Assembly (NCBI GenBank): GCA_963281255.1
Contig: OY725489.1
Location: 6,510,523-6,574,522, forward strand
Length of the DNA stretch: 64,000 nt
Direction of reading: 5' to 3'
Source of the DNA: Aphrocallistes beatrix
Taxonomy: Eukaryota; Porifera; Hexactinellida; Sceptrulophora; Aphrocallistidae
Shown: one piece after another, positions 4,158-61,279 of the stretch
Layout: the number at the start of each line of letters is the position of its first letter
How positions within the stretch are numbered: position 1 is the stretch's first letter
The notes under the pieces: model-generated
Databases searched by the model: none
Told to the model about the DNA's origin: nothing
Seen by the model: the letters and a program-made list of their open reading frames with translations, nothing else
Program-made: the position numbers and the translations under genes

Positions 4158-4159
4158 TA

Positions 4160-7100
4160 CTCCTGAGGGAGAGCTGGAGAATCGCCAGCGGCACCTTGGA
4201 GATGCGAATCTCCCCGAGCTGCGACTACTGCAGAACTTCCTGCATGAAGTAAACCCCTACGTCTCTCACTTCAGACAAGGTGTAGATATGATGAGAGACA
4301 AGGGGGGAGTGGACGTTAGGATGACCATCAGAACTGATGGTGCACCAGATCCGAGACGCTATAACGCTCCAACTGCTCCCGAAATAGCAGTCATAATGCC
4401 TGGAGATGGCTACACTGAAGGTGTGGCAACCAGGGATATAGTGCTGCATGCACGTACAGGAGGTTTAAAACGTATCACTGAAACCAAATGGAGGCTATGT
4501 GCATACGATAGCCTCCATTATGTTTTATTGTTTCCTTCAGGAGATAACGGCTGGCACCTGGGCATTCCCCACAGTAGAGGGAAAGGCTGTGTTACTGCAA
4601 TAGAGTTCTACTCTTACCGCCTATTGGTAAGGAGCTCTCTGAGCTATCTGCATCTCTTCGGCAGACTGTTCCACCAGTATATCGTGGACATGTACGCTAA
4701 AGTTGAGCAGCAAAGGTTGAACTACATAAAGTTAAACCAGGAAAAGATCAGAGTGGATCTATACAAAGGCCTGGCCGATGCAGTATCTGCAGGTGACGTC
4801 AATCCTATGGCGTATGGAAAGAGGATCATACTACCTTCTTCCTTCACGGACAGTCCTCGACAGATGTTCGAGCTCTATCAGGACAGTATGTCTATCGTAC
4901 GGAAATACGGTAAACCTGATTTATTTATTACATTTACATGTAACCCGAAATGGGAAGAGATTTTTTCTGCTCTTTTATTGAATCAGAAAGCGACTGACCG
5001 TCCAGACTTAACTATAAGAGTATTTAGAATGAAATTGCGTGAACTGCTTAATGACATTGCGTTAAGCATGTTCTAGGGAGACCACTCGCGCATGTCTACA
5101 CCATCGAGTTTCAAAAGCGCGGTCTCCCTCATGCACACATCCTGATCATCCTATCAGATCAGGATAAACCTAGAGATCCAACTATGTATGATAAGATAGT
5201 CTGTGCTGAGATTCCTGACAAGGATCTCAACCCTAGACTTTATCATATTGTGAAGTACTGCATGATCCACAGCCCATGCGGCGTAGTAAGGAAACATGCT
5301 GCCTGTATGCGAGATGGAAAATGCAGCAAGAAATACCCCAAAGTATTTTCTCAGTTTACCACAACCGGTAATGACAGCTATCCTATGTACAAACGTCGAA
5401 ACAACGGCCGTACAGTTATTGTGAATGGAATTCAGCTGGACAATAGGTGGGTTGTTCCATACAACCCGTATTTACTTTTGAGATACAATGCTCATATAAA
5501 TATTGAGATTTGCTCTACCATTAGTGCTGTTAAATACCTCTACAAGTATGTGTATAAGGGTCATGATAGAGCGATTGTCGAATTTCGCATTGGTGATAGT
5601 GCTGGAAATAGCACTAACAAAGCAACCATGGACGTCGATGAGATTGTCAATTAGCTTGAAGCGCGTTATGTTTCTGCTGCTGAATCCTGCTACCGACTCT
5701 TTGCGTATGAGCTTCATGCTAATCTACCACATGTCATGAGGTTAGCTCTCCATCTGGAGCATCACCAGCCTGTCGTGTTTACCGGAGATTCTGACTTGCA
5801 GGAGGTTCTTCGTAGACAGAGGGATACCACCCTTACAGGATGGTTTTTGGCAAAACCAAAAATACCTTAGTGCTCGCAAGTTCACATACACCAACTTCCC
5901 TGATGAGCTTGTATGGAATAAATCCAAACGTGAGTGGACCGAAAGGTTGAAAGGACATGGTAACATGATAGGTCGTGTCTATTCCGCCCATCCCGGTGAA
6001 GGAGAGCGTTACTTCCTCAGAATGCTTCTTAACCATGTAACAGGCTGTACCTGTTACCAGGATATCCGCACTCTCCCTGATGGCACCGTCTGCACTACCT
6101 TTAAGGAAGCGTGCCGTAGACGAGGCCTGTTGGAAGATGACCAGGAGTCCGATGACTGTCTCACTGAGGCCGCTACCTGTGCTATGCCAGCACAACTGCG
6201 ACAGTTATTTGTTACTATCCTTCTGTTCAATGAGCCCTGTGACCCACTAGCGCTGTGGAATAAGCATAAGGCGTCTCTTGCAGAGGATTTTCTACTTCGT
6301 GCGAGAATTCTTTTTCCCAATGTCAAATTGAATGCGTCTGTTTTGAATAGTGCGTTACTAGATATTGAGAATCGCTTAGAAAAGCATGGAAAATCTTTGT
6401 CCGATTATCCCGAAATGCCTATCCCCACTCAAGATAGGAGTCCATTTGATCTACCGCGCATCATTCAAGATGAACTTGCATATGATGCACCTGAACTAGA
6501 CATAACTGCAGATACCAACGTGCCTTTACTGAACCCTGATCAGCTGAGTGCATATAACTGTATTATGGAGTCTATAGACAATCCTATTGCTGAAAACAAA
6601 GCATTTTTTGTAGACGGTCCCGGTGGGACTGGCAAAACATTTTTGTACAATACATTGTTAGCTAAGATTCGCTCCCGTGGTGAAATCGCACTAGCAATGG
6701 CTTCATCTGGAATAGCAGCTCTCCTCCTAGAAGGCGGGAGAACTGTTCATTCTAGATTTAAAGTTCCTATCACGTTGAATGAACTATCTGTGTGTAATAT
6801 CACTAAACAGAGTGCTTTAGCCAAACTTATACAGGGTGCTAAGCTTTTAGTTTGGGATGAAGCTCCTATGATGCATAAACATGCTGCTGAATGTATAGAT
6901 CGGACATTGAGAGATCTCTGCTCCAACGATCTACCATTTGGCGGCAAAGTTATTGCATTTGGAGGTGACTTCCGACAAATCCTACCCATCATTAGGCGTG
7001 GATCGAGGGCCGAGGTCGTATCAGCCTGCCTTAACAGATCTTCACTTTGGCACCATGTCAAAGTGATGAAATTGACCATAAATATGCGTCTTCGAATGGA

Positions 7101-8055
7101 TTCATGTCAGGATCGTGAAAAGGGTGGTAACTTCTCTGACCTTTTATTGAGGGTAGGAGAAGGTACTGAGCCTCATGATGAGAATAACATGATTCCTTTA
7201 GATCACAAATATGTAGTACGTGGTGAGTCTATTGCAGACTTAGCCACTGCTATATATGGTAACATTAAATAGCACTTTAATGATCGTGATTACGTCACGC
7301 CGCGTATTATGATGTCTCCTAAAAATGAGACAACTGAAAAGATAAATAAATACGTGATTGATCAACTTCCTGGTGAAGCAAAGGTATTACTGAGTGCAGA
7401 CTCAGTAGATACCAGTCAGGCAGCTATGTATCCTACTGAATACCTTAATTCTATTACGCCTACTAGCTTGCCTCCACACCGCCTCTACCTTACGGAGTAT
7501 GCGTCAATTATACTCTTGCGCAGTCTCGATCCCACGAATGGGATGTGTAATGGCACGCGATTGCTAATTAGAGCATTTTTAAACAATATTATAGATGCCG
7601 AAATTGCCACAGGTGTCCATTGTGGCAAACGAGTGTTCATTCCTCGCATTATAACGACTCCTTCTGAAACAGATTTTCCGTTTGTTCTCAGACGGAAGCA
7701 GTTTCCCATTCGCCCTGCCTATTGTATAACAATTAACAAAGGGCAGGGGCAGAGTCTAGATTCTGTTGGTATATTTCTACCATCTCCTGATGCTATATTC
7801 AGTCATGGGCAATTGTACGTTGTCCTGAGTCGAGTTAAGAACTCTAAGGGCTTGAAAGTCATGGTTTGCGGAGCAAACTATTCCACTTCGGGTGGCGTTT
7901 GGATTAGGAATGTGGTCTACCGTGAGGTATTCCAAAACCGTAATATCAATCCATCCCTTAATGATACCATGAATCTTTCTCAAATAGATATATCATTGAG
8001 TGAAATTTCATTTTCTACTGCAGACTTAAGGAATCGCTCTGAGGATTCCTATTAG
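4160..8055 (+). pseudogene. Helitron Rep (HUH) and Pif1-type helicase
   Basis: This continues the Helitron protein after the mariner. The Rep nuclease motifs are FITFTCNPKW (about 4918-4947), the HUH-type LPHAH (histidines at 5130 and 5136), and the two-tyrosine motif YLYKYVYKG (about 5535-5560). The SF1B/Pif1 helicase follows: Walker A GPGGTGKT at 6616-6639, Walker B LLVWDEAP, GGDFRQILP, TINMR, the late TINKGQGQSLD and VVLSRVK. Breaks are a frameshift near 5055-5065, TAG at 5652, an extra T in the run at about 5841-5846, and TAG at 7270 (probably from CAG). The family nicks and joins single DNA strands and unwinds during rolling-circle transposition. This copy cannot make a full protein. Confidence 0.9.
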
Positions 8056-8261
8056 AGCAGCAGTATCTCTAACAGTACTGTCAATCGCTTCTCCCTGAAC
8101 ATGAGGACTCAGTTAGCCATAAGTATTGACATGGATCCTGAGTTGATTGCAGACTATGAGAACACTTTTGTGAATATTATTGATAGCTGTTTAGGACTAT
8201 ATTATAGATCCCTAGAATGCGGCTATCACAAATGTTGGGGACACTTTAAATCTGTGTCCTG

Positions 8262-8709
8262 TCATTGGGGACGGTAATTGTCTTTCCGTTCTTTATCTCA
8301 TATCATATTTGGTACTGAGAAACATTACAACGATTTGAAATCAAATTTGATTACAAAATTCCGCAATAGTCCAGAACACTCCTTAAATGTCATGCACATG
8401 TCAGGCATTACAAGTGAAGAGGAGTTGGACGATCATTTTGAGCTAATCAACATTCCGAACGAATGGGGTACAAATGTAGAATTAGCTATTTTAGGTGCTC
8501 TAGCGCATCTAGATATTTTAGTGATCAATGCAACTAATAATGATCACCAGTTTTGGAGAGTGGATACCATTTATGCACACAATATTGTGCCCGCTATTTC
8601 TCTGTGTAACCCTACCTTTAATGGTCAGAGGTTGGGTATAGTACTACATCGACTACACAACAGCGACATGCTATACCATTTCGATCCATTTTATTTCAGT
8701 AGCTCATAG
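8262..8709 (+). pseudogene. OTU cysteine-protease domain at the end of the Helitron protein
   Basis: The motif GDGNCL (catalytic Cys codon 8279-8281) is followed, after loss of one T, by FRSLSHIIFG in the next frame. The domain then runs open to 8709. Conserved features are NEWGTNVELAILGALAHLDILV in the middle and YHFDPF near the end, which supplies the catalytic His. OTU proteases cleave ubiquitin chains, and OTU extensions are known in some animal Helitrons. The stretch between the helicase stop (8053) and this domain (8056-8260) is mostly open in the helicase frame, so it was probably one polyprotein. It is inactive here because of the frameshift next to the active site. Confidence 0.8.
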
Positions 8710-9966: not shown

Positions 9967-10452
9967 ATGTGCGCTCTCTTGCAGATACACCACGAGACGA
10001 ATGTGCACTCTCTTACATGCAGATACACCACGAGACGAATGTGCACTCTCTTACATGCAGATACACCACGAGACGAATGTTCGCTCTCTTACATGCAGAT
10101 ACACCACGAGACGAATGTTCGCTCTCTTACATGCAGATACACCACGAGACGAATGTTCGCTCTCTTACATGCAGATACACCACGAGACGAATGTTCGCTC
10201 TCTTACATGCAGATACACCACGAGACGAATGTTCGCTCTCTTACATGCAGATACACCACGAGACGAATGTTCGCTCTCTTACATGCAGATACACCACGAG
10301 ACGAATGTGTAATCTTACATGCAAATACACCACGAGACGAATGTTCGCTCTCTTACATGCAGATACACCACGAGACGAATGTGTAATCTTACATGCAAAT
10401 ACACCACGAGACGAATGTGTACTCTCTTACATGCAGATACACCACGAGACGA
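9967..10452. repeat. 38-bp minisatellite, about 12.5 copies
   Basis: Unit starts (ATACACCACGAGACGAATG) fall at 9985, 10023, 10061 and so on every 38 bp to 10289. Two 36-bp variants start at 10289 and 10363 (GTGTAATC replacing the CGCTCTC part). The final partial unit ends at 10452. No unit carries a stop in any forward frame, so all three forward frames stay open; 38 is not a multiple of 3, and all three frames therefore repeat the same 38-residue peptide cycle. Each unit ends CTCTCTTACATGCAG, which looks like a 3' splice site. I do not regard the open frames as evidence of a protein. Confidence 0.95.
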
Positions 10453-13171: not shown

Positions 13172-13429
13172 CTGTTTCGTAGTATTTTGAGGCGCTTATA
13201 TAGATGGTGTATATATGGACCATGGATGTGCTATTATATTTTAACCTGTAGTATTCTGAGGCGATATCGTATGATTTTGAGGCGCTTGTATAGGTGAACC
13301 AGGGATGTGCTATTATATTTTGAACAGTAGGATTCTGAGGCGATATCGTAGGATTTTGAGGCGCTTATACATGATTGCATATATCTTGTACAAGTTCGTG
13401 ATTGTAATTAATCGAAGATTACTACCATA

Positions 13430-13695
13430 CATAGGCGTCGTAACCCATCCGGTTACCCGGCAATTGCCGGGCAGCCCAGAGTGAATGCTGGGTACTACCC
13501 GGTAAAAGCTTAGTGCTATTATGTACTGGTAATTGGCTATTACTAATTCCTCATGTAGATCAAGGGTTCACGGCCCATTTGGCTGACGGTAACGCTGGAT
13601 CAGCTGAAGATACGGCCCGATTAACTGACTGAACGGCCCTGGATTATTGTGGCCGGGCAGTCCAAGGGTAGGAAAGAAAGTTTACGACGCCTATG
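13430..13695. mobile_element. Miniature hAT-type element, CATAGGCGTCG family
   Basis: 266 bp, ends CATAGGCGTCGTAA and inverse, flanked by perfect 8-bp CTACCATA (13422-13429 and 13696-13703). The interior has GC-rich CCGGTTACCCGG and GCCGGGCAG blocks. A second copy is at 20947-21230. Confidence 0.92.
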
Positions 13696-13803
13696 CTACC
13701 ATATTAACATTATAATTTGGAAGCTTGGCATATATCTATATTACAGTACCCAGCAATAATGCCAACTTTATGTCAAAATCAATATTTTTGCGCAAGATTA
13801 TAG

Positions 13804-15030
13804 TTAAGGTTGGTGTTTCCCATGCGAAACTTGTTTTTTATTAAAAATGTGCCCAAATTGCTTTTTTATCATTTTTAGATCCTTATAGAGGTTCTAAACA
13901 ATAATCCCGACTTTTATAACTCCAACCCCAATATTTCGCCACTTTGAGCCACTTGTATCACCTGGTGTCGCTCTAAAAACGACACATTATAAATGCGAAA
14001 TGTCCCACAGCTCTAACTTCTTTAAACAGTGCCAGATCATCTTTTTAATGCTGAATTCATGCTCAGCACTAGATTTCCAGCATTTTGATATATATATTGA
14101 CCATATTTGGAAACATTTTTGTTTGAACGTGCCTAGCAACGGCCAGGAATTTTTTCACATTCCTGACCGTTGCTAGGAAAAGGCAACCAAAAATATTTCC
14201 AAATATGGTCAATATATATATATCAAATTGCTGGAAATTTAGTGCTGAGTACGAATTCAGTATTAAAATAACGACCTGGCATAGTCAAATAAAGTTATAG
14301 GCATGGGATTTCGGAGAAAACTATCGGACATGGTCATTTTTGGGACCCCAGTTATAACTGTCAACTTTTTCACACTTTTGAAGGTGTCATGATGTGAAAA
14401 TATTTGATATGTCATATTTTGAAGTTAAGTACTACTATAAGTTGTTGATTGAGGATGTTTTGATGTTATATATTATCAGAATACCGTAAAACAAATGGAA
14501 ATCAAGTCTTTCCGAAGAAAATTGCTTTGTAGCCTGTTTTTAGCACTTAAAAAATCAATTTTACAAAGGAGGAATCTCTAGTTACAAAGGTCGTAGAGTT
14601 AAAAACTCGATGGTTTTAGAAAGATCTCGTCACGTAGAACAAAATGATAGAGACAGATTTTTGATATTCTACTTTAGAAAAAAGTTAAAATATTTTTCCT
14701 TACGAAAATCTGCCTCTAAATTTTGTATAAACGAAATTTGAAAGAAACATTTATTTGGGTTAAAATTGAAAATTCTATTCCTATTATTTTCTTTATTCAA
14801 CCATTTTGTGTAAGAATAATTGAGTAAAAGAAGGATAAGGCATTGAAGTTTCCTTGAATGTCCTCTATAAATTAGGTCATTTGGGGAAAAAAATATTTTT
14901 CTCTTACTTCTTGGGCTCCCGAAAAGTGTATTTTTGCAGATAACTCATCGAGAATAGTTTCCACAAAAAATTTCAGGAGAAAATAATGAAAACTTTAAAA
15001 GTTAGTTCTGGAAGGAAACACCAACCTTAA
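13804..15030. mobile_element. TTAA-flanked non-autonomous element, family K, copy 1
   Basis: Bounded by TTAA at 13804-13807 and 15027-15030. The ends are GGTTGGTGTTTCC and inverse. It holds a strong internal inverted repeat (14035-14285). The TTAA duplication with GG/CC ends fits Kolobok better than piggyBac, but no transposase is present to decide. Copies at 21877 and 38889 have GGTTGGCCTTTCC ends. Confidence 0.82.
14035..14285. repeat. Internal fold-back in the TTAA element
   Basis: Two arms of about 100 bp. The left arm contains GCTGAATTCATGCTCAGCAC and TGACCATATTTGGAAA, and the right arm their inverse. The centre is the tight hairpin CCTAGCAACGG...CCGTTGCTAGG around 14155. The same fold-back lies at about 22600-22860, and a weaker half is at 51640-51700. 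Confidence 0.85.
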
Positions 15031-15680
15031 AGATAAATAAACAAATCACTTTGAAATTTGAAATTTGATCTAAATAATGCCTCCCCCCCTAAAATATATC
15101 CAGCCCCTCCAAATAATATTTGGGCGCTACGCCATGGGTCACATGTGCATAAAAAACAGTTCCATTGTCGACTTTCTCATTATTACTAACCTTGATGGTC
15201 ACCTGTACACAACGGTCCTTTTTGGCTAGTCAAAAACCTCCGCTTTAATTAAACAGCTAAATTTTGTAACTGAATAAATATGTCTAATGAAATAATTTCG
15301 GACATAATGACATATTATTAATGCAAAATTCCATACATTTTCCAACAATACTTATACATAATTATTGATTACAGTACAAAATATGTACACTCAATTACAT
15401 ACAAAAATTTATTAAATTGCTATGTTGAAATGCTTTCTATAAGAAGAGTGTCATCTTATTAATCAGTCAACTCTTCTGATAAGGTCCGTCTAGCTCTAGT
15501 CTGGCACTGGTATCATGTGTACCGAGGTCATAGTACTGAGATGTAAAGCTAATTCCTTTGAGTGTTTCGTCCCGGCTTGGACTCATCAGTTGCGTTGCCT
15601 TTCACGTAATACACTCGAGCTGGATGTACGCATCGTGGCAAGTTGTAAGCAAGTGTAACGTCATTAGGAAGGGCTGGTTG

Positions 15681-16361
15681 TTACTCAACTAAGTGTACTT
15701 GATCTGAGATTGAGCCATATGTAGGAGTTGGGCTATTCAGCATCGAGTTGACTGGTTCAAAGTGAAGACCATAGTTGGTGATGTAGAGTGCTGCGGTTGG
15801 ATTCGTGCTAGCGCCCAGTAAGCTCCAACGTACTTCACGAGTTAGAGTCCCTTCCTTCCTATAATCGTTATTGGCCACATATATGTCGACATTAAGAATA
15901 TCAGAAGCGACCATAATCTCAACATCGCTTCCCCAAGTTCCTTCAAGTGATGTTAGATTTTCTGTGAGAAAGTATCCACAAGGTGTCAATCGCTTCGATT
16001 TAAAATACCATCCAAGTCGTGATATACCTTCGCTTGCAATAAAATGAGCAATAATGAATCTGAGTTGCGGATGGCTGTTTTGGCTACCAGTAATGATGTG
16101 AGAAAAACAGCGAAAAAGGCAATTTCCGTCACCAACTATGTTCTCCGTTTCCCACGGCTCATAGTACTCGAGTAGCTTCCCGTTGTAGTTGACAGGTTGC
16201 TTGCTGATAGAATGAAACGGAAGTCCCAAGAGGTCGCATTAAGTCCTTTGCCAATTTTCGCTGATACAATCAATAATGGGAGATTTAGGCGATGACAGGG
16301 GAACATGTTTCTGAACAGAATCTAAGTTATCCCACAGCATTGTATTGAGATATTGCATCGC
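15681..16361 (-). pseudogene. Ginger1 OTU exon (copy 2)
   Basis: Homologous to the last exon (31524-32186) of the intact element. It starts after an AG acceptor as AMQYLNTMLWDN and runs to a stop at 15681. The OTU active-site motif is intact (ENIVGDGNCLFRCFSHIITG), and a late His lies in NYGLHFEPV. One in-frame TAA interrupts QRT*CDLLGLPF, just before the OTU part at about 16232. From that point to 15681 the frame is open for 182 codons. It is part of a decayed gene and probably not expressed as a whole. Confidence 0.85.
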
Positions 16362-16375
16362 CTAGTGATTAGATA

Positions 16376-17311
16376 TCCTTACTAAAACTTTAATGTATAT
16401 TTATTTATATATACAGTGGAACCTGTATATAACGGCCACCCAAGGGATTGGACAAAATTGGCCGTTATACACAGGTGACCGTTATATACAGGTGATTGTC
16501 TTTCCCCCAAAAGTATCAACTGAAATAAATATAAGTTTTTAGAAATCCATTACTTGAAGTAATTACATGAAACTTGTTTATCGTTCGTAACAAGCCCTGT
16601 AATAAACACATAAAAAGGTGAAAAAAGAAAAAGGTGATGGCCGCTATAGACAGGTAGTGGCCGTTATAGACAGGTGATGGCCGTTATACACAGTTTTAGG
16701 GTCAATAAGGGACTACAAACGGGTGGCCGCTGGCCGCGTTGAGCAGGTGACCGCTATACACAGGTTCAATATTATGGAATTTCGGACGGGACTGTTCATT
16801 GGTGACCGCTATAGACAGGTGACCGTTATATAGAGTGGCCGTTATAGCAGGTTCGACTGTATATATATATCTCTGTAACGAATTGATTGAAGAAACTGCC
16901 GGTCACAGAAAGCTCATTTTTGGCATGTGGGATCATGGAATTATGACGTCATTGTCACATTTTTAAAAGTTAAGCAACACAGTTATTCGAGCATAACTCA
17001 GCCATTTTAGGAGATAGAAGGCTGAAATTTTAATAGAATCTGTATACTAACACGTCTCACATATGATGCAACTATCATCAAAAAAATGATGACTCATCAC
17101 TTTTTATGACGTCATCATTACTCATCAAAATTTTAAAAATTGATATTTTTGGTGATTTTCGTACGATATCGATTAGAACAGCAGGACAGACATATTTAGA
17201 GGTGTTAACTCCCTTATAATTAACCAATGTGACCCCAGGCGACCGAAGGGAGCCTCCGGCGGATACAAAGTGTCCGCCAGCCGCGCAGCGCAAGCAAGCG
17301 AAGCGCGCTTG
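16376..17311 (+). mobile_element. Short Helitron family B inside a Ginger1 intron, itself split
   Basis: Starts TCCTTACTAAAAC after host A and ends GCGCGCTTG before host T. The 5' TA-rich linker is interrupted by a 446-bp element (16414-16859); the rest (from CTGTAACGAATTGATTG) continues at about 16870. It carries the family blocks TGACTCATCAC, two near-palindromic TGACGTCA sites, and the hairpins GGCGGACACaaaGTGTCCGCC-like and CAAGCGaagcgCGCTTG at the 3' end. It lies between Ginger1 exons 9 and 10. Confidence 0.88.
16414..16859. mobile_element. Short pogo/Tigger-like element
   Basis: 446 bp with ends CAGTGGAACCTGTATATAACG and CAGTCGAACCTGCTATAACG (inverse), flanked by TA (16412-16413 and 16860-16861). 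The interior repeats GGTGACCGTTATA and GGCCGTTATA many times in both orientations. Confidence 0.85.
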
Positions 17312-17354
17312 TAGTTAATAATTGCGCATATGTATTTCTAATAATGAAGTCATA

Positions 17355-18846
17355 TTGTACGAACCACAAAATACAGTACTTTGTGTATATATCTAGCTGC
17401 TTGGAGCTCTGTTAAGTCAGGATAGAGATCAGAAGTCCAACCAAGCAACGTCTCAATCAACTCTCTCTTGTCTAATACGAGTAAGGCTGCTCCATATTGT
17501 AAGGGAACGTGGAATTTGTCACAGAAATTAGATGTATGAACACAAGTAATCAATTCTTATTTTTACATCCATTTTTTTGTATCTATGATCTCATTCACGA
17601 AACTACTACTTAATTAAACTTAACTTAAACTAAGTAAAAACGTTATTTTTAAAAAGGAAATTGGGGACATCGTGCTTCACTTTGAGTTTATGATGTAAAC
17701 TCTCATGTAGCGGTGTCATGAAGGTACCACTCCGTATATTCCCCCTCAGAATTTCCTACAGGTGAATCAAGACATTGAATAACGAAAGTACAAAATATTA
17801 CACCATAAAGAATTGTAGTGACGATAAAGATTCAATTGTAGTAGATTGACGTCAATCGAATAATTTAATTTTAGACAAACAACAAAATACGATATCAAAA
17901 TGGAACTATGTGTGAAAAAGAAGGTAATCATTACTTTGAAATTCCTGACGTGTGTGAATATGGTTTCTCGGCTGAATCCAAAGAGACTCGGACAAACCTA
18001 GAGAAGAAAATTCCTAAATTCGTGTTACTTGAACACTTCAAATAACAAAATCTTGAAGCTGTGAACTAGTACGTACCTGAGAAGAGTCGGTTTTTGTCTT
18101 TTTGCTGCATTCATTGCTAACAACATCTGTAGCTTTCGTTTCCTTTCTAAAGGCTTAAAGGGACATTCAAAATATGGCCTTACGATGTGGAGTGGAAGCT
18201 TTCTTTTCTTTTTTGGATGGGTCAGTACTTACAAGCACAGCATGACTCTCTGTCACCCTCGACAATGTGTGAGGTCCTAAATACTTCCCCTGCTCTTTGG
18301 TGTTCGGTAACCTCTAATTTGGCCATGTTAGTAACGAGGACTTGATCACCTTTCATTAGAGATGGCCTGTTGATATTTAAATGAAAATTAATTTAGCTTT
18401 TCAAGAGTCACCATTATGAATATTACTTAGTAGTATAGTTTGAAGGAATCAACTCACCTGTTGCCAGTCACTTTCTTATCATAGTGTATCTTTTGTCTGA
18501 GTTGCTCAAAATTGATACAATCCACAGCTGACTTGTTGGTGGCTGTTCGGGCTGCGTGGATGAGAGCAACTTCTTCCTGGGGTTGGTCATGGGGTGGGCA
18601 AAACAAATCGACACACTCATCTTCCGGAGGCACGGTTTCAGATATAATTGCCTCTTCCAATTCAAAATCTGAATCTTCGTTTAGATCTAAATCATTGATC
18701 GCCGAAAGTAGATCTTGATGCCTAGATTCTCTTCCCCACATCACCTTGAAAGGTGTTTGTCCGTGTGATCTCTTTTTGGTGGAATTCATCGCAAAGGCTG
18801 CGGATTTTAACAATTTTGACCAATGATCACCTGTCTGTAATTCCAT
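17355..18846 (-). pseudogene. Ginger1 exons 5-9 (copy 2)
   Basis: Five exon-like blocks in the order of the intact gene. Exon 5 is about 18454-18846 (HWSKLLKSAAFAMNSTKKRSHGQ, MWGRESRHQD). Exon 6 is 18077-18366, the GPY/F region (KYLGPHTLSRVTESHA, HIVRPYFECP), with frameshifts. Exon 7 is about 17938-18001 (VCPSLFGFSRETIFTHVRNF). Exon 8 is about 17645-17755 (EILRGNIRSGTFMTPLHESL). Exon 9 is about 17355-17460 (LIETLLGWTSDLYPDL). AG/GT borders are mostly kept. Exons 1-4, with the zinc finger and DDE core, are gone, so this copy cannot make a transposase. Confidence 0.75.
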
Positions 18847-19224
18847 CTTAACTTAGTTTACTAAAAAATGAAATATTGTCAACGTATGTAAGGGGAAATA
18901 ATCGGAAATTCATACAAAATAGATTTCAAATAAATTTGTTTAAAACGGAATAAACTAGCATACCGTATTGCTTCGAATAAGCGCCCGGGCGCTTATTTAT
19001 TTCATGCACCCTTTAGACCCGGCGCTTATTCAAACCGGCGCTTATTCAAGCCCCGGCGCTTATTTTTTTCATTCGCTATTTTGACCCGGCGCTCTTTTTT
19101 TTTGTTTACACATTGACTGGCACTTTTATTTTTGCCACAACTGAGAATGTTAGTTCTATTAAAAAAGCATAATGTAATGTTTCAAAAAGCACTTCTATCT
19201 ATGCCACTACTGAGAATACTAGTT

Positions 19225-19424
19225 NNNNNNNNNNNNNNNNNNNNNNNNNNNNNNNNNNNNNNNNNNNNNNNNNNNNNNNNNNNNNNNNNNNNNNNNNNNN
19301 NNNNNNNNNNNNNNNNNNNNNNNNNNNNNNNNNNNNNNNNNNNNNNNNNNNNNNNNNNNNNNNNNNNNNNNNNNNNNNNNNNNNNNNNNNNNNNNNNNNN
19401 NNNNNNNNNNNNNNNNNNNNNNNN
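19225..19424. other. Assembly gap, exactly 200 N
   Basis: A placeholder gap. The sequence to its right is one arm of a long palindromic repeat, so the gap may hide the palindrome centre and the missing arm. Confidence 0.99.
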
Positions 19425-20513
19425 CCAAATATAACCTATTGTGCAATCATATGATGACTAATCGAAATTTTAACAACGGATATGGATACTTTGGCGTCAT
19501 ATTTATATATGCTGGTAATATATTTCGAAGTTCTATTCTGCGTCGCTCATGATTTTTGGCAGATCATGTATTTGATCAACCATCTTCGACCGCATCCCTG
19601 GTCCTTTTTGGAGATTTAGATGGAAGGCCTTATATACAGAGTGCTATAGTCGGAATAAATATCGGACTGTTTAGCAAATATTAGTCCACTAAAATTAACT
19701 TTTCAACTCATTAGTGACGTTTATTGCATTCCTATTACATAGCAACAACAGCATTGCACTGTTTATGTTTAGTCTGTCTGTGGTCTAATATACAACAGAC
19801 TTATAATTCCGAATGCACATCTCAATAGCAGAATGTTGTAAGAATGGGTGATATTATAGAGGAAGACATAAAAGCATTTTCAAAATGGTGGAAGTTGAGA
19901 GTTGTCAGGTCAATTATATATTTTTACTAAAGGGATGGTGCATAAAAATTTGAGTTATATATAGTAGAAAGTGTTTACACGTACAAAAATGTGAATAACT
20001 CAAAGAGAACATATGGAAACCAAATGATTTTTTTATACAATGAATTATGAATATAAACAGTAAATATCCAAAAATAAAACGTTTCTAAAATATACATTTT
20101 TGTTACGTCCCGGTTAGTTCCGGTTTCCTTCGGGAGTTGGTTTCAGCTCCAGTTTTCACAAAGAAAAGGAACTCAAAACTTAATTTACTCAAGTTTTTCG
20201 TATTCTCCATACGTAAAAACTTAAGTTTTGCAATTTTTATGAAAGAATTTGATGAATATTTTTCGAGTTATTCGAGTTTAAAATGAGATGGTGATTTTAC
20301 CATTGTGAAAATCCTTGGTCAAACAGCAAAAATTCAAAAATTTTTGACGTCATAACTCAAAAACCACATGACCGATTGATCAGAAATTTTCACAAAGGTA
20401 AAGACATATCAGTGCCCTGTCGCACAGCAAATTTCAGACAAATCGGTTGATGGTGGTGAAATGATTGGTTTTTTGACATGGAATTTTCTATATACTAGTA
20501 TAGATTAATCGAG
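19425..20513 (-). repeat. Palindrome arm plus repeat ending in a Helitron-type 5' end
   Basis: 19425-19830 matches one arm of the palindromes at 26440 and 50039 (TCTTCGACCGCATCCCTGGT, TTAGTGACGTTTATTGCATT). 20103-20513 matches 29385-29760 (GGAACTCAAAACTTAATTTAC, CACATGACCGATTGATC). It ends in the inverse of the family B start (ATTAATCGAGTTTTAATAG, AAGG). Position 20047/20048 is the empty-site equivalent of the Helitron insertion at 27658-29325. Confidence 0.75.
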
Positions 20514-26439: not shown

Positions 26440-27475
26440 TTAGAATGCTATGGTCTGTTGTATATTTCACCGCAGATAGACAAAACATAAATAGTGCAAT
26501 GCTGTTGTCGCTATGTATTAGGAATGCAATAGATGTCACTAATGAGTTGAAAAGTTAATTTAGGAGGATTAATATTTGCAGAACAATCTGATATTTAGTC
26601 CGACAATAGCACTCTATACATAAGGCCTCCAATCTAAATCTCAAAAATGGACCAGGGATGCGGTCGAAGATGGTTGAACAAATACATGATCTGCCTGAAA
26701 TCATGAACGATACAGAATAGAGCTTCGGAATGTATTACCAGGATATATAAATATGGCGCCAAGGTATCCATATCGGTTGTTAAAATTTAGATTAGTCACC
26801 ATATGGTTGCGCAATAGGTCATATTTGGGACAGGTTGTTTAAAGGCACTTCGAAGTGGTTTTATTTTAGGTTCTTTCGTATAGAATTGAGCTGTGAATGG
26901 CTTGATGCGAAAAGTTTGAATTTCTTACGGAATGTTGTTACATTCCAGCGTTGCTATGGAAGCACATTTTGATTTGATGAGGTCATATCTTAAAACCCGC
27001 AATAACTATGCATTCAAATTTGATCTTATTTGATTGCCTATAGACTACGTCCTATAAAGCCATTACATAATTTTGACGTCCAGGAACATCATTTTCACGT
27101 CTAAAGTGATAAATGGTTGAAGTGATAATGGATATTTAATTTCGGATATGGATACCTTGGCGCCATATTTATATAACCAGGTAATACATTCCGAAGCTCT
27201 ATTCTGCGTCGTTCATGATTTCAGGCAGATCATGTATTTGTTCAACCATCTTCGACCGCATCCCTGGTCCATTTTTGAGATTTAGATGGGAGGGCTTATG
27301 TACAGAGTGCTATGGTCGGACTAAATATCAGATTGTTCTGCAAATATTAGTCCTCCTAAATTAACTTTTCAACTCATTAGTGACGTTTATTGCATTCCTA
27401 TACATAGCAACAACAGCATTGCACTGTTTATGTTTAGTCTATCTACGGTCAAATATACTACATACTTATAATTCC
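26440..27475. repeat. Long imperfect palindrome, about 1.04 kb
   Basis: Arms of about 500 bp around a centre near 26957. The left arm reads GACAATAGCACTCTATACATAAG, CCAGGGATGCGGTCGAAGATGG, ATACATGATCTGCCTGAAATC. The right arm carries the inverse (GATTTCAGGCAGATCATGTAT, CCATCTTCGACCGCATCCCTGG). Related to the palindrome at 50039 and the arm at 19425. No coding capacity. Confidence 0.85.
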
Positions 27476-27711
27476 TAATGCACATATCAATTGCAGGATG
27501 TTGTAAGAATGAGTGATATTATAGAAGAAGACATAAAAGCATCTTCAAAATGGTCGAAATTGAGTTATACTATATAGAAAGCGTTTACAGGCACAAAAAT
27601 GTAAAATGACACAAAGAACATATGGGAACCAAATGAATTTTTGTATACAACGAATTATCTTTACTATTAAAACTCGATTAATGTTTGTATATGTGTATAT
27701 ATAAATATATA

Positions 27712-30895: not shown

Positions 30896-30968
30896 CGAAC
30901 TGATTACAAAATCGAAGTTAGCTGATTTTTAATATATCAGATAATTTTGCACTGATTCGAGTAAGTTC

Positions 30969-31167
30969 TGTTGCGTGAAATTCTGAGGCGCGTGAAATTC
31001 TGAGGCACTTGTATACAGGGACCATGGATGCACAACTAGCGTGACATTTTGAGGCACTCCATGAAATTCTGAGGCATGAACAAAGAAACCTGATCAGAAC
31101 ATATGATCTAAGACTACTAGGTTTCTGGTTCCTATTACAGATGATGTATCATCTAACATGATGATTT
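30969..31167. repeat. Ginger1 left terminal inverted repeat
   Basis: Pairs with 35603-35801. It includes GGGACCATGGATGCACAAC and ATATGATCTAAGACTAC. Subterminal GTGAAATTCTGAGGC repeats may be transposase-binding sites (inference). Confidence 0.95.
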
Positions 31168-31523
31168 TCATTCATTTACGTATTATATTATTCTTGTTGT
31201 GGTTAACAAGCGTAAGAGGTCTGTATTTCTTTACTATTTTTATAAAAGACAGTCAAACAACATAGTCTAACGATCATTTCTATAAACCGTATCTAGCAGT
31301 TCTCTCTGATCGCTATAATATGGAATTGTATATCGTTAATTGTCAATATTGTAATCAAATTAACTAAATAATGATACCAACAAGTAAATGTAACACAACA
31401 TATTATAATTCAACGCCTAATCTATCAATCTGATGACAAAATTAACAAAACTTGAACAGTATTGCATAAAGGACTGAGTAAATGTGACTTCATAATAGTA
31501 TATTTTCATTACATTAAAACTTC

Positions 31524-34500
31524 TTAATCCATTCCAAAAGTTGGAGTGGAAGAATTAATCATAGAAACAACAGGTTCGTAGTGTTCATGATAGTTCTTTA
31601 TATAGAGTGATGAATTGGTATCTTTCGTAGCTCTAAGCAGGCTCCATCGTACCTTGCTAGTGTACTTATTCGCTTCCATACTATAATTGTTGTTAGCTAT
31701 GAATATATCCGCTTGAAGAATTGCGGAAGCTGCCATTATCTCAAAATCGCCTCCCCAAACGCCATCTAGGTAGGTAGGCCTTTCACTAAGAAAGTAATCA
31801 CATGGTGTAAGGCGAGATTGTCGAAAATACCAACCCATTTGTGTAGTACCCTCGCTTGCCATGTAGTTAGATATGATAGAACGGAGAGTAGAATGATTTT
31901 CCTGGCTTCCTGTAACAATTTTGGAGAGACAACGGAATAGACAGTTGCCATCTCCCACGATATCTTCAGTTTCCCATGGTTGGTATTTTGAAAGTTGTTC
32001 ATTTAAGAGGTGATCGGGTTGCCTGCATACGGAATGAAACGTGAGTCCGAGCATAGCACATTTCTGACGCTGCCATCGCTCATCGACTACCGTAATATTC
32101 GGGCTTTTAGTCAACATGCTAGGAATGAAATTCCTCCAGTTGTCAGGAAACGTTTCCCATAGCATGGTGTTTAAGTATTGGATTGCCTAATACAAGGAGA
32201 GTTATAATTACCCTAATTTTGTAAATTTCATAACTATGCGCGAAAATACAGATATTATTAAAAAAACAGAAAAATTTGCATTCTAGCTAAAGGCTCGAAA
32301 CATTTTCTTTGTTATAGTCGAAATAAAACATTTTATTATTTCGAAATTTGTTTAGTCTAACACAATTTTTAATTGCAATCTCACCAATAGTCAATTAATC
32401 AACTAAACAGATATCACAAACTTACCACTCCATATAATACTTTTTCTGTGTATTTGATGGCTAATGAGCCGCCAAATTGAGGATATAAATCCACTATCCA
32501 ACTTTGAAGTTTTTCACGAATTGCTTTTTTCTACAAATTAGAAATATGTTAATTTAATTGCTATGTAGTTGTGCTAGGAACATTGCGAGTTCATTACTCC
32601 TTGATAACTATAAACTATAAATAGAAAAATGACGTAGCCAGCCGCGGGTTTTAAGTAATTTGAAAAACTCTTAAGTAGTTTATGGTCATACGCATGACTA
32701 TCTTGCATGCATGTGCATTGTTAGTATCCTATTGTTGGTATTAACTCAATTCCATGAGCTATAATTAGCAAAGAGAATCCAGTCTAAATCATTCAGTTAC
32801 TTATCGTAATCATTTTGTATTTGTCAGAGTGTTTATTACATCATCTGCTACACTTCATCTTTTACGAAATGTTGGAAATGTACAAGTAATTGCGGTATTT
32901 ACGTTTTGAAATAATGAAACAATGAAATAATCTAAATATCGAATTTATCTTGTTCGAGATGGTTGATATTTAAATCCAGAGATAGAAATTTTCCAATAAA
33001 ACTGGAAATAACTGAATAAAGAATTACTCACCAAATTAACTTCACTTGAGTCATTCAGGAAACGAAATAATAATGTGTTTGGAACATACTCGTGATTTTT
33101 ATTGAGCAACTCATGAAGTTCTTGATGTAATTGACTCATGAACGTTCCTTCCCTGATATTAGTTGCTAAAATTTCCTGTGTAGAGAAATAAGAAATAAAC
33201 CTTTCGAATGGCTAAATATAATTGACGAAAAAGGTAGTAGAAAAGAATGGAATAGGCTACCTTGAGATTGTTGAGATGTCTCACTATTTGTACTCTTTGA
33301 AATCCAAAAAACTTGGTGTCACTCGAAATCTAGATATTAATTAAAATATTTGACGATATAATCAAATACAAAATTTGTAAGTTGAGAAATGTCAATTATG
33401 TTATTACTAACCTTGGTAGTGTTCACGATATCGATTTTTACATCTGTTTTTTTCGTTGTTTGATTAATATTGCTCGAAAGAACATTTCTTTTGAAGTAAG
33501 GTCGGGTTATATGAATTGGAATTTTCTTTTCTTTTCTTTTTCCCTGTTGATCTTGTGAGACGATAATGTGACTTTCGGTGATCCGTTTTACTGTTTGTGG
33601 TCCCAAGTATTTTCGTTGACTTTTGGTTTTCGGCATTTTTTTAAATTTTGGCATATTTAAATATAAAAACTGGTCTCCCTTTTCCAGTGAATGTCTAGAT
33701 GGAACATAATGGATATTCAATAACCTACTGGTAACATTTCTTTAAATATTTAATGCGGAAGCTAAGTTTGAGCAGATTTTAGTTGAAGTTTCTTTTAGAA
33801 AATGATTTTATTTAGTATAAGTTTGTAGAAATTTGAAAATATACCTGATGTTGTTTACTTTTTGGTCGTATTGCCTCTTTTGTTTTGATTGTTCGGTTAG
33901 AATCGACTTGACTGCAGACTTGTTTGTATTCTCTCTATTTTCATCAATAATGGATATCTCTTCCTGGTGTTGTTGAGAAGATGGCTGGAATAAGTCTTCG
34001 ATTTCACCACTGTTTTCCTCATCAAGCGGGAATTCGTCGACTATAGTCTCCTCGCACTCAAAATCTTCAGCCGATGTGGAAGAAATATCGTCGATAGAGA
34101 GTAGTTCTTCATATCTGGACTCTCTTCCCCACATTACTCTGAAGGCAGTATATCCGTGAGACTTTTTCCTAGTACTGTTCATTGCAATGACAGCAGACTT
34201 GAGGAGCTCCGACCATTCTTTATTAGTTTCGATGCACATCTTGTTCAACTTCCTAAATTTGCATATTAATTAATGAAAAAATAATTTTATATCTATGTTC
34301 TCCAAATCCAGTTATTAACAAAAATTATTACATCTTGAGGATCTTATTATGTGCTTCCACTAATCCATTAGCCATTGGATGATATGCACGTGTCTTTCTG
34401 TTGTCAATCCCTAACCGCTTGTGGAAATCTTGGAAGATCTACATACATGCTGGAATGACATACGATTCTCAAGTAAATTTCTAAATATTTTGATGGTTAT

Positions 34501-35476
34501 CGTACTTACGTTGCTTGTAAACTCCTTTCCTTGATCATGCTGGATAACTTTGGGCAAACCAACTTCAAGGTATATGTCCTTCAGCTGCTGAATTACTTCT
34601 TCAGAGGTCTTTGTTTTAAGCGGTCGAGCTAACACGTATTTGCTAAGGTAGCACACTGTAACAAGTATGTGTTTGAAACCTAGTCGAGTCACTGGGAGAT
34701 CGCAGATGAGATCCATGCCTATGTGGAACCATGTTTGGTTTGGAGGAGGGATAGGCTGAAGTTTTCTTTGAGGTTGTGCAGGTAATGGCGCTTCAGATTG
34801 GCAGTAATCACATGTTTTTTTCTAAATAGAATTGCTAAATATTCAAGGTCTTCAAAAATGATTCAATATAATGAAGCAATACATAAAAAGGCAAACAAAT
34901 TAATAGACTCAGCACTCACGTATTGAGAGACATCTGTAAACATTCCTTTCCAGTAGTATTGTTGCTGTATTGCTAAATAAGTAGAGTTGATTCCTGGATG
35001 GCCTACTTTATCATGGAACTTTTTCAAAATTCCATCGACTTCTTCACTTAGAGCGACTTTTACATCTACCTCTGTTCCCTCAAGATTGATTCTCTGAAAC
35101 AAATGCTCAATCAAAATTAAATTTTATTTGTCAAATATTTTCGGCAGAAAAAGTGCTCGGGGCCTTATACGTATACAACTCTTTGCACAGATATTGCATG
35201 CATTTATTCTTTAAGATAAGTTTCACAACCTTATCTTAGCAACTTTGCAATAATTAGAAAAAAACAACTACAAAAACTTGGTGCTCACCAATAGTTCAAC
35301 TAGTTTAAGTCAAGAACTCAATTCCTTACCTTGTGAAGAGTATCTGATTCTCCAATAAAGTAGCCTGAAACGCTTCTCCTGAAATTCCATTTTGTCTTGG
35401 AGTTAAGTGATGCTGCTGGTGGGTATATGTCATTTCGAAGGAAATTAATAATGCTTTCGTATTCCTCTGAGTTCAT
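31524..35476 (-). CDS. Ginger1 transposase with OTU domain, 10 exons, open
   Basis: Exons, all with GT/AG borders: 35330-35476, 34920-35093, 34510-34821, 34332-34438, 33845-34252, 33412-33724, 33261-33329, 33032-33175, 32426-32530, 31524-32186. They sum to 2442 nt, that is 813 residues plus stop, in one frame. The domains in order are: N-terminal part with IYPPAASLNSKTKW; an H2C2 zinc finger (FHDKVGHPG, then TCDYC across an intron); the integrase DDE core (GMDLICDLP, HDQGKEF, GLVEAHNKIL); a GPY/F module (KYLGPQTVKRITES, HITRPYF); and the OTU protease (EDIVGDGNCLFRCLS, late NYHEHYEP). The integrase would cut and join the TIRs; OTU would remove ubiquitin. The start is the first ATG in exon 1. 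Splice sites are my reading and unproven by RNA. Confidence 0.88.
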
Positions 35477-35602
35477 TTCAATGCAAAAAGAAAGGAAAGT
35501 TACTCAATAAAATAACTGAATTTGCAATACTGTTAAAATATTATATTTAGTAGGAAGTTAATACTTTATATATAAACGCTTTGGTAGTAAAGACGAATAA
35601 CC

Positions 35603-35801
35603 AAATCATCATGTTAGATGATATATCATATGTAATAGGAACCAGAAACCTAGTAGTCTTAGATCATATGTTCTGATCAGGTTTCTATGTTCATGCCTCA
35701 GAATTTCACGGAGTGCCTCAAAATTTCACGCTAGTTGTGCATCCATGGTCCCTGTATACAAGTGCCTCAGAATTTCACGCGCCTCAGAATTTCACGCAAC
35801 A
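35603..35801. repeat. Ginger1 right terminal inverted repeat
   Basis: Inverse of 30969-31167. Lies upstream of the gene's first exon, so it probably also contains the promoter. Confidence 0.95.
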
Positions 35802-36088
35802 GTTCTAATCCAAGGCGAAAATGACAACTTAATATCTAGTAGTATGGGTGCACGTTCTAACTAGAATCGCTCATATCGTAAAATTGGTATATTGTGGCGG
35901 AAAAATCAACTTTATTATTTAGGCACATGAAACCATAGGTATGCTAAATAGAAGTTGTTTTATACATGAACCCACTTACTAGCTAAAATCGAAGTATACG
36001 CTATGATCATATAGGCCAGAATCCCTTGTGGTGGGGTTTTCGAGCCATAGGCACAACATTTTCCGAAAATGAGGGGAAAGAAATGATA

Positions 36089-41767: not shown

Positions 41768-44124
41768 CAGCGGTTCTCAAACATTTCCTCATTGTGTACC
41801 CTTAAAGCAGGATTTTATGCGGCTCGTACCCCTTCAAATGGATCACAACCTTACTTTATAAATATTATGTTTACAATCCCTTTAACCCAGTTGTGCAGAA
41901 TATACTTGTTTTATTAATATAGAAATATAGCGCAAAATGAATTAATGGGATGGATGTGCTTGCATTTTGCGCACTAGGTTATCAATTCGTGGTACAGTTT
42001 TCGTAAGGGCCAGACGGAGATCATCTTCGACTGCCATCCGCGCTCGAAATTTGTTCTTGATTAGAAAGAGCGAAGAAAATCCTTGCTCACAGAGATAAGT
42101 GCTGGGAAACATTAATAAGGGTTTTACAGCTATTTTTGCCACGTTGGGATACATCACGCTCATTTCGCACCAAAACTTGGTGAGTGAGAGTGTTTCGAAT
42201 TTATCTCTGGCATTGGAATCGTTTATTAGTTCAACAAATTCTTCTTGGAGTATGTCAGGTATCGAAGTTACATCCAAGATAAATGGATTTCGAATCATTT
42301 TCATGTCCGAATCGCTCAGATCTGGGAAGTAATCCTGAAGTTCATTGCGTAATGCGGATAGATGAGCCTTTACTAGAGCACATATACTCTGATCTGTAGT
42401 ATCTCCAAGAGCTGCTGACAAGTTTTCAAAGAAATCTAACTTTCCAACGCTTACTTTAGCTTCCCAGAGTTCTAGTTTCATAAGAAATGCCCGAATCCTG
42501 TCCACAAAATCAATTATGGTAGTAAACCGTCCTTGGAGTGACTTGTTGAGCAAGTTGATACGCGTGAAAATGTCAGTTAGCCATTCTTTATCTGAGAGTT
42601 TATTGGAAAATAACTTTGACTTCTCTTTCCCATCGCGTTCAAAGAATTCAAGCAATTGGTTTTTCATTGAACTTACTCGAGAGAGCATGTTCCCGCGTGA
42701 CAGCCAACGAACTTCAGTATAGAAGAGTAAATTTTCATGGTCACTATCTATTTCTTGGCACAATAGGCGGAACATACGTGTATTCAAAGCACTGGACTTG
42801 ATAAAATTGACCATGGTTACAATATCGTCAAGAACAAGTTTTAGATGTGATGGAAGTGTTTTAGATGCAAGAGCATATCGATGTATCATACAATGATTGT
42901 GTTTCGAGACTGGATTGACTCTCTTTACTCGAGCTCGAAATCCTGAATGAATCCCTAGCATAGCAGGTGCACCATCTGTTGTGCAAGCAGAAACGTTCTT
43001 CCAGGATAGTCTCATCTTTTCGAAATAATCAGAGACCTGCTGAAAGATATCTTCTCCTTTCGTAGATGTCTCCAGGCACTGACAAAATAGGAACTCTTCC
43101 TTAAAGTCCCCATATTTAATGTACCGTGCAAATACCAGTAGCTGTGCACAACTAGAAACATCAGTTGACTCATCAAGTTGAATTGAAAAAGTGTTCAAAG
43201 GAGCTCCCAGAATCTCAGCAACTATCTGCTGCTCAACGTCATCTGCCATATCTCTAATCCTGCGCTTAATGGTGTCGTTGGAGAACAGTAGAGAAACGAG
43301 TTTCTTTTCAGCACTATCTCCCAGAACGCAATGCACGATGTCCTTGCAACAGGGGAGTATAAGGTTCTCTGTAATAGTATGCGGTTTCTTCGCCTGAGCG
43401 ATTCGCAAAACCACCATGTACGATGCACGAACGCCCGCCTGAGTCTGTTGACTGAATTGCCCTCCATGATCGAGACGGATTCGCTTTACTCCGACCTCTT
43501 TGTGCTTAAAGAAATCGATATCTTTAGTTGCAAGATCAGGGTGGCATCCGCTTAAATGGCGTTTTAGAAAACTTGGTTTCATCGAGCTCTCAGATAACAC
43601 CTTACAACAAACTACACATTGTGGTAGTTCCTGCCCCTCTTTAAGTATGAATGTAAATCCGTACTTGATATAATCCTCATTATACTTCCGTTTCTTAGCA
43701 GATTCCATAATAATTTTGTTAAAGCGTAAATTGTCAAGGTCACAAACGAATACTGGTTCAATCAAGTATTTACGTTTTATACTTTGAAAGAATACTTCTA
43801 TACACGGGTAGATGTGATATGCAAATTGACATGGGGTAACACATAGGTATGTAGAGATAATGGAATCCTTAATAGCATAACCACAAACAATAGCACAGGT
43901 GATAACTAATAATTATAATTATTGAAGAAACCATTGCAACCGATATATTTTAACTAAGTATACTAATATCAATTTACTTTGTAAGTGCTGGTCTGTTGGG
44001 ATGCTGGAGTGGGGCGAAATTTATTATAACCGAATTGATATTATTGTGTTAAACATCGGCGTACCCCTATAAAAAGTGTTGACGTACCCCCAGGGGTACG
44101 CGTACCCCAGTTTGAGAACCCCTG
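41768..44124 (-). mobile_element. Complete hAT transposon
   Basis: 2357 bp flanked by a perfect 8-bp duplication AACTACAT (41760-41767 and 44125-44132). Ends CAGCGGTTCTCAAAC and CAGGGGTTCTCAAAC, then GTACCCC-rich subterminal blocks on both sides. It contains one open transposase gene. Confidence 0.95.
41942..43708 (-). CDS. hAT transposase, SCAND3/ZBED-like, open
   Basis: 588 residues from MESAKKRKYN, the family-type start; an upstream in-frame ATG at 43765 would add 19 residues. A BED-type zinc finger lies at residues 31-56 (C31, C34, H51, H56). The RNase H-like catalytic core shows LDESTD (about residue 180), CTTDGAPAMLG (about 250) and HCMIHRYALASKTLP. The C-terminal hAT dimerisation block includes FPSTYLCEQGFSSL and NKFRARM. 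Length and motif order match intact members, and no stop or frameshift is seen. It would excise and insert elements with CAGNGGTTCTC ends and 8-bp target duplications. Movement is plausible but unproven. Confidence 0.92.
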   Translation of the reverse strand: MESAKKRKYNEDYIKYGFTFILKEGQELPQCVVCCKVLSESSMKPSFLKRHLSGCHPDLATKDIDFFKHKEVGVKRIRLDHGGQFSQQTQAGVRASYMVVLRIAQAKKPHTITENLILPCCKDIVHCVLGDSAEKKLVSLLFSNDTIKRRIRDMADDVEQQIVAEILGAPLNTFSIQLDESTDVSSCAQLLVFARYIKYGDFKEEFLFCQCLETSTKGEDIFQQVSDYFEKMRLSWKNVSACTTDGAPAMLGIHSGFRARVKRVNPVSKHNHCMIHRYALASKTLPSHLKLVLDDIVTMVNFIKSSALNTRMFRLLCQEIDSDHENLLFYTEVRWLSRGNMLSRVSSMKNQLLEFFERDGKEKSKLFSNKLSDKEWLTDIFTRINLLNKSLQGRFTTIIDFVDRIRAFLMKLELWEAKVSVGKLDFFENLSAALGDTTDQSICALVKAHLSALRNELQDYFPDLSDSDMKMIRNPFILDVTSIPDILQEEFVELINDSNARDKFETLSLTKFWCEMSVMYPNVAKIAVKPLLMFPSTYLCEQGFSSLFLIKNKFRARMAVEDDLRLALTKTVPRIDNLVRKMQAHPSH

Positions 44125-60869: not shown

Positions 60870-61279
60870 GAACAAAAAGGTTCTTTACCGACCACATAAG
60901 GGTGCGCGTTATTGGGAGGTGCCCCATTCAAGGCTCCATTTTCCATCCCAGACAACAATATGTCACAATAGCAATGCACACATAACAGTAGATATGTAAG
61001 CACGTTACAACCAAGTGCAATTGGAATTTAGCTTAGTAAGAATTGAGAAATGCAAACACCATCCATAATTGGCAAAATTCTAAAAATATCAACATGTGCA
61101 TGTGCACTGTACATGGCTAGCTATATTTAGAATTCTGTCACCACAATACAAGAAACTAGTTCTATTATTAGCATGTGAGGTGGAACTATTATGCGCACTA
61201 CAACTGTAGTTAATTTTAACGTTGTTACACCAAATCAATATAAGTATGGAAATAATTAATGTCATAACTAATTCAAAAA
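60870..61279. other. Upstream region of the Mutator-like gene
   Basis: AT-rich. No inverted-repeat end recognised. Presumably contains the promoter. Confidence 0.35.

Follow-up and report, generated by a model that had tools for sequence, protein, structure and literature searches.

A segment of a contig from the glass sponge Aphrocallistes beatrix (OY725489.1), lying in the 64,000-nucleotide stretch analyzed here as a whole (the window), raises the question of whether an integrase-like gene framed by long inverted repeats is a complete transposon, and of which kind. We are strongly inclined to see in this segment, hereafter element A, an autonomous cut-and-paste DNA transposon that belongs to the Ginger superfamily, lies closest to the OTU-type Ginger1 elements, and was inserted intact, as it combines both ends, a target site duplication, an open ten-exon frame, the corresponding domains, and residues at the catalytic places.

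Ends and target site duplication of element A

Element A occupies window positions 30969-35801 (4833 bp), coordinates that proved exact, and is delimited by the following features:

30965..30968, no strand: target site duplication GTTC, left (read from flanks)
30969..31167, plus strand: left terminal inverted repeat (TIR), 199 bp, at the 3' end of the gene (repeat comparison)
35603..35801, minus strand: right TIR, 199 bp, at the 5' end of the gene (repeat comparison)
35802..35805, no strand: target site duplication GTTC, right (read from flanks)

The TIRs, which a preliminary description of this DNA had put at about 199 bp, measure 200 nt at 98% identity in the repeat comparison and, once trimmed to the duplication, indeed 199 bp with five mismatches. 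These mismatches fall at positions 77, 93, 115, 172, and 178, giving an arm identity of 97.5%, so that the two arms agree fully over their outermost 76 bp. Since the repeat arms of DNA transposons are not made identical upon insertion, this 97.5% identity gives no insertion date. The termini read TGTTG...CAACA, in line with the TGTNR of Ginger1, and the GTTC duplication that had likewise been described is perfect on both sides (30965-30968 and 35802-35805). Because a chance 4-bp match at fixed ends is expected with a frequency of only ~0.6% given the local base composition, and because the TGTTG...CAACA boundary is exact, we take the duplication as real, albeit as a single case.

A predicted ten-exon gene and its protein

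The gene of element A is encoded on the minus strand, an orientation that was absent from the preliminary description. The predicted coding sequence starts with the ATG at 35476, comprises 2442 nt (813 aa plus stop), and closes with a stop codon whose last base is 31524; all nine predicted introns follow the GT-AG rule. The earlier statement that ten exons sum to 2442 nt in one frame without a stop could be reproduced exactly, with the following exons:

35330..35476, minus strand: exon 1, ATG, YPYY-like motif (Y18 P19 F32 Y39) (gene model)
34920..35093, minus strand: exon 2, first part of the H2C2 zinc finger (H76, H81) (gene model)
34510..34821, minus strand: exon 3, C111/C114, catalytic D144 and D203 (gene model, alignment)
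34332..34438, minus strand: exon 4, catalytic E239 (gene model, alignment)
33845..34252, minus strand: exon 5, end of the integrase core and acidic stretch (gene model; relative in element B)
33412..33724, minus strand: exon 6, GPY/F-like region (GPQ) (gene model; relative in element B)
33261..33329, minus strand: exon 7, 69 nt (gene model; counterpart of 63 nt in element B, by eye)
33032..33175, minus strand: exon 8 (gene model; relative in element B)
32426..32530, minus strand: exon 9 (gene model; relative in element B)
31524..32186, minus strand: exon 10, OTU cysteine protease domain (D672, C675, H795) (gene model, Pfam, PDB match)

Under loose splice rules, the longest spliced frame reaches 2502 nt on the gene strand and 885 nt on the opposite strand, and none of 60 local shuffles attained 2502 nt (mean 790 nt, maximum 1431 nt). 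The G+C content is 38.7% in the exons and 27.9% in the introns.

Within the 813-aa spliced protein, Pfam recognizes Integrase_H2C2 (residues 68-116, E 1.4e-16), rve (residues 142-232, E 2e-11), and OTU (residues 671-779, E 1.3e-9), and the best 60 of 111 PDB matches are headed by foamy virus integrase (E 3.9e-22) and the Ty3 polyprotein (E 1.1e-20). In the alignment with foamy virus integrase, D144, D203, and E239 pair with the D, D, and E that we take to be the catalytic residues of that enzyme, and the 35 residues between D203 and E239 give a D-D-35-E core. Upstream of the zinc finger, Y18, P19, F32, and Y39, placed by eye, fit Y/F-P-Y/F-Y/F. The position of GPY/F reads GPQ (residues 424-426), with GP and its context kept. 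The zinc finger, DDE, and OTU motifs announced in the preliminary description were thus recovered by Pfam and by alignment, while the GPY/F motif was found in its context only. No domain other than H2C2, rve, and OTU exceeded the curated cut-off in the scanned frames, namely the spliced protein and 16 of the 23 frames of at least 50 aa that overlap element A, each of the 16 being scanned separately.

Exon 10 also matches OTU domain-containing protein 1 in the PDB, albeit weakly and around the DGNC motif (3.2e-5). Assigned by motif, D672, C675, and H795 presumably form the OTU catalytic set; H795 falls outside the Pfam and PDB matches, and all three residues are kept in the relative described below. 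Folding this exon together with its counterpart in that relative returned an unusable model (mean pLDDT 38.1; 217/220 residues below 50).

A decayed relative and repeated end motifs

The window contains a second, related element, element B, which ends at ~18860 and was absent from the preliminary description. It is given here with the motif arrays found in the ends of both elements:

13173..18860, minus strand: element B, decayed relative, left terminus present, stop-containing counterparts of exons 5 to 10 (protein comparison)
13184..13362, plus strand: AWTYTGAGGC x5, left end of element B, partly in a tandem 79-bp repeat (motif count)
30980..31075, plus strand: AWTYTGAGGC x4 in the left repeat of element A (30980, 30997, 31046, 31066), proposed transposase sites (motif count; function inferred)
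35695..35790, minus strand: AWTYTGAGGC x4 in the right repeat of element A (35695, 35715, 35764, 35781) (motif count; function inferred)

The left end of element B starts with TGTTT and is preceded by GACC, the partner terminus being absent for comparison; a run of 200 N (19225-19424) comes after the element. The upstream part of element B could not be located: exons 1 to 4 of element A give no match better than E 0.25, and introns 1 to 3 likewise lack a counterpart. Further downstream, protein matches were obtained for exon 6 (E 1.4e-10), exon 8 (8e-9), exon 9 (6e-6), and exon 10, whose counterpart shares 54.6% protein identity with element A. Exon 7 on its own returns no match at the corresponding site; its support comes from boundaries that fit by eye and from a longer match (E 8.6e-4) running through an intron and stop codons. 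At the DNA level, exons 5 and 10 score above all 30 shuffles and the other eight exons do not; intron 8 scores 32 against a shuffle maximum of 29, a slight excess that we take as chance. Over the 217 codons of exon 10 left after removing gaps and stops, the two elements differ at 63% of third positions versus 32% of first and 27% of second positions (dN ~0.37, dS saturated), a codon-position pattern suggesting that the protein has been under selection after A and B diverged.

Out of 11 comparable splice boundaries, six lie at the same place in both elements, as judged by eye (those flanking introns 5, 7, and 9), and five are shifted or not found in element B. The acceptor of intron 6 keeps its phase in an exon shortened by 6 nt, that of intron 8 fits only with an AG making the exon 3 nt shorter, that of intron 4 is 1 nt off, and the donors of introns 6 and 8 were not located in element B by eye. 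By sequence comparison, element B supports the 3' half of the predicted gene of element A. At the GPY/F position, it reads GPH, so that the loss of Y/F may be a trait of the lineage rather than a sign of decay, bearing in mind that B is itself decayed. Repeats common to other parts of the window also sit within element B.

Exact AWTYTGAGGC motifs occur 13 times in the 64 kb, where 0.73 would be expected, and none of 100 shuffles reached 13, a contrast to be read knowing that the pattern was picked after inspection of the ends and that the matches are not independent, the arms of A being mutual copies and the array of B partly a tandem repeat. All 13 are terminal, with four in each end of A and five in the one end of B. 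With one mismatch allowed, the enrichment is mild (29 versus 17.5 expected; 1/100 shuffles reached 29). Another word, GACCATGGATG, is found exactly three times in the window, once per known end (two of A, one of B) and nowhere else, and with one mismatch at four further sites (19593, 26650, 27259, and 37569). Because much of the remaining end sequence has diverged between A and B, both repeated motifs are probably binding sites.

Three of these one-mismatch sites (19593, 26650, and 27259) fall in two related repeats, 19425-19899 and 26453-27564. Within the latter, 26453-27465 forms a long inverted repeat whose arms match at 89% over 66 nt and at 94% over 266 nt, and which resembles the Ginger ends in an 11-bp word only. 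Both repeats were considered as non-autonomous Ginger1 elements and rejected, as blastn with either end of A or with the left terminus of B gave no match there at E <=1.

The rest of the window holds other mobile-element-like features. Reading frames of a Helitron extend over 4117-8529 (Pfam Helitron_like_N, E 3.8e-44); after them, 8261-8529 bears a faint likeness to the OTU domain of element A (E 0.068), and a Pfam scan of 8278-8709 returned nothing. An open frame of 799 aa at 61268-63667 encodes a Mutator-like transposase domain (E 1.8e-50), with a PHD finger below the cut-off, one of 656 aa at 41942-43912 has hAT-type matches below the cut-offs, and one of 398 aa at 2911-4107 presumably encodes a mariner transposase, judging from its looks. 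At 9980-10452, a 38-bp unit is tandemly repeated 12.6 times, and Rfam gave no match anywhere in the window.

Affiliation, alternatives, and significance

Ginger1 is described as having TIRs of 40-270 bp, a 4-bp duplication, TGTNR ends, and a size of ~2.6-7 kb; every family but one in Table 1 of the founding paper carries an OTU or Ulp1 tail, the OTU type being represented by Hydra Ginger1-1, -2, -3, and -11, one Aplysia family, and two aphid families (PMC2836005). Element A resembles these OTU-type elements in its single transposase with an H2C2 finger, DDE core, and C-terminal OTU domain, as well as in its TIR length, 4-bp duplication, TGTNR start, and overall size, and its YPYY-like residues, placed by eye, may be a further likeness. 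The earlier view of a structurally intact Ginger1 with an OTU domain is upheld, in the sense of a Ginger1-like element, by its domains (H2C2, rve, OTU), TIRs, duplication, and open frame. It departs from them in three respects. Its duplication is GTTC, on one copy, when 112 Hydra copies had CCGG in 75% and CCGT/ACGG in 24% of cases, which agrees with the initial remark that GTTC lies outside the CCGG/CCGT set (PMC2836005); it has nine predicted introns, versus zero to four in the 16 families of Table 1 (PMC2836005); and it carries GPQ instead of GPY/F. Neither a GTTC target nor nine introns was mentioned for Ginger1 in the titles and abstract openings listed, which is no proof of absence. Because GTTC is outside the known set on one copy and one motif residue is off, we file element A as a Ginger1-like variant and not as a plain Ginger1 member. 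Its intactness by itself is unsurprising because intact Ginger1 copies have already been published: the idea that Ginger1 is usually found decayed is at odds with the founding paper, which has complete elements in 3/4 species (PMC2836005).

Other affiliations fit less well. Ginger2/Tdd elements share with element A an integrase-like transposase with H2C2 and DDE, TGTNR ends, and a 4-5 bp duplication; however, Ginger2 is without YPYY and GPY/F and prefers RTATAY (PMC2836005), whereas element A has a candidate YPYY-like motif and its site is TAAGTTCTAA (one site, by eye). Judging from this one site, from the frames scanned, and from its terminal repeats, element A does not fit the definitions of Ginger2/Tdd, of Gypsy LTR elements, or of domesticated genes devoid of terminal repeats. 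We also looked for close relatives. The first 299 residues gave 4 pattern matches in viral contigs and 53 in prokaryote genomes, and the last 176 gave 5 in viral contigs; tblastn confirmed none of them, both collections being unlikely places for animal transposons.

Regarding rival explanations, Gypsy (Ty3) integrases possess the same type of zinc finger and catalytic core, and reside within a retroelement with a reverse transcriptase and direct LTRs. The closeness of the integrase core to Ty3 and foamy virus integrases could suggest that the locus is what is left of a Gypsy LTR retrotransposon, or of another integrase-bearing element, lying between chance repeats. Yet Pfam found no reverse transcriptase, RNase H, or gag in the 813-aa protein and 16/23 element frames, the repeats are inverted rather than direct, the gene has introns, and the same frame ends with an OTU domain, which makes this explanation scarcely credible. 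Slightly less improbable, but still very unlikely, is a host gene recently domesticated from Ginger1 with its repeats still attached by chance, as GIN1, GIN2, and Imagin descend from Ginger1 transposases and have introns (PMC2836005, PMC3424704, PMC12863088). In number, the nine predicted introns are indeed closer to the six to eight of these host genes than to the transposons' range of zero to four (PMC2836005), and H2C2, rve, and OTU domains are all present. However, GIN1, GIN2, and Imagin are fixed host genes, whereas element A keeps its TIRs, with both ends and the duplication intact; it also retains D-D-35-E, when Imagin has lost its repeats and catalytic residues (PMC2836005, PMC3424704, PMC12863088). 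Moreover, several intron positions are common to the decayed relative B, and those introns therefore belong to the transposon lineage.

A third scenario, compatible with the transposon reading and to which we give a little under an even chance, is that this copy is structurally complete yet immobile, through its splicing, its GPQ, or its TIR mismatches. The five mismatches between the arms and the GPQ speak for it; against it, the outermost 76 bp are identical, and the GPH of element B, for what a decayed copy is worth, allows for a change throughout the lineage. In one Hydra family of Ginger1, some copies are <1% diverged and are thought by the authors to be still active (PMC2836005).

If element A is an autonomous transposon, its mobility may be sketched from related integrases, excision of Ginger1 being termed unknown in the founding paper (PMC2836005). 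A spliced mRNA would yield the 813-aa protein, whose zinc finger and neighboring parts would recognize the AWTYTGAGGC arrays at either terminus; both ends would then be brought together, and the D144-D203-E239 core would cut beside TG/CA and insert them into target DNA at strand breaks 4 bp apart, from which repair would generate the GTTC duplication. As a guess close to one found in PMC2836005, the OTU domain may act as a deubiquitinase on the protein or on repair factors. More tentatively, and at odds that we regard as rather unfavorable, element A could represent a multi-intron OTU-type Ginger1 lineage that has moved off CCGG/CCGT, recognizes its ends via AWTYTGAGGC arrays, and has changed the third residue of GPY/F; the target change and the GPY/F change might be linked.

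Element A has more predicted introns and, on this one copy, another target than the published examples, and is otherwise ordinary. Ginger1 transposases are closely related to Gypsy integrases. A complete copy whose target differs, whose ends carry repeated motifs, and whose gene has nine introns would offer a usable start for a transposition assay. If the proposed lineage is real, a tight CCGG preference would be a trait of some lineages and not of the whole Ginger1 group. The introns common to the diverged elements A and B also bear on whether GIN-type host genes inherited theirs from the transposon.
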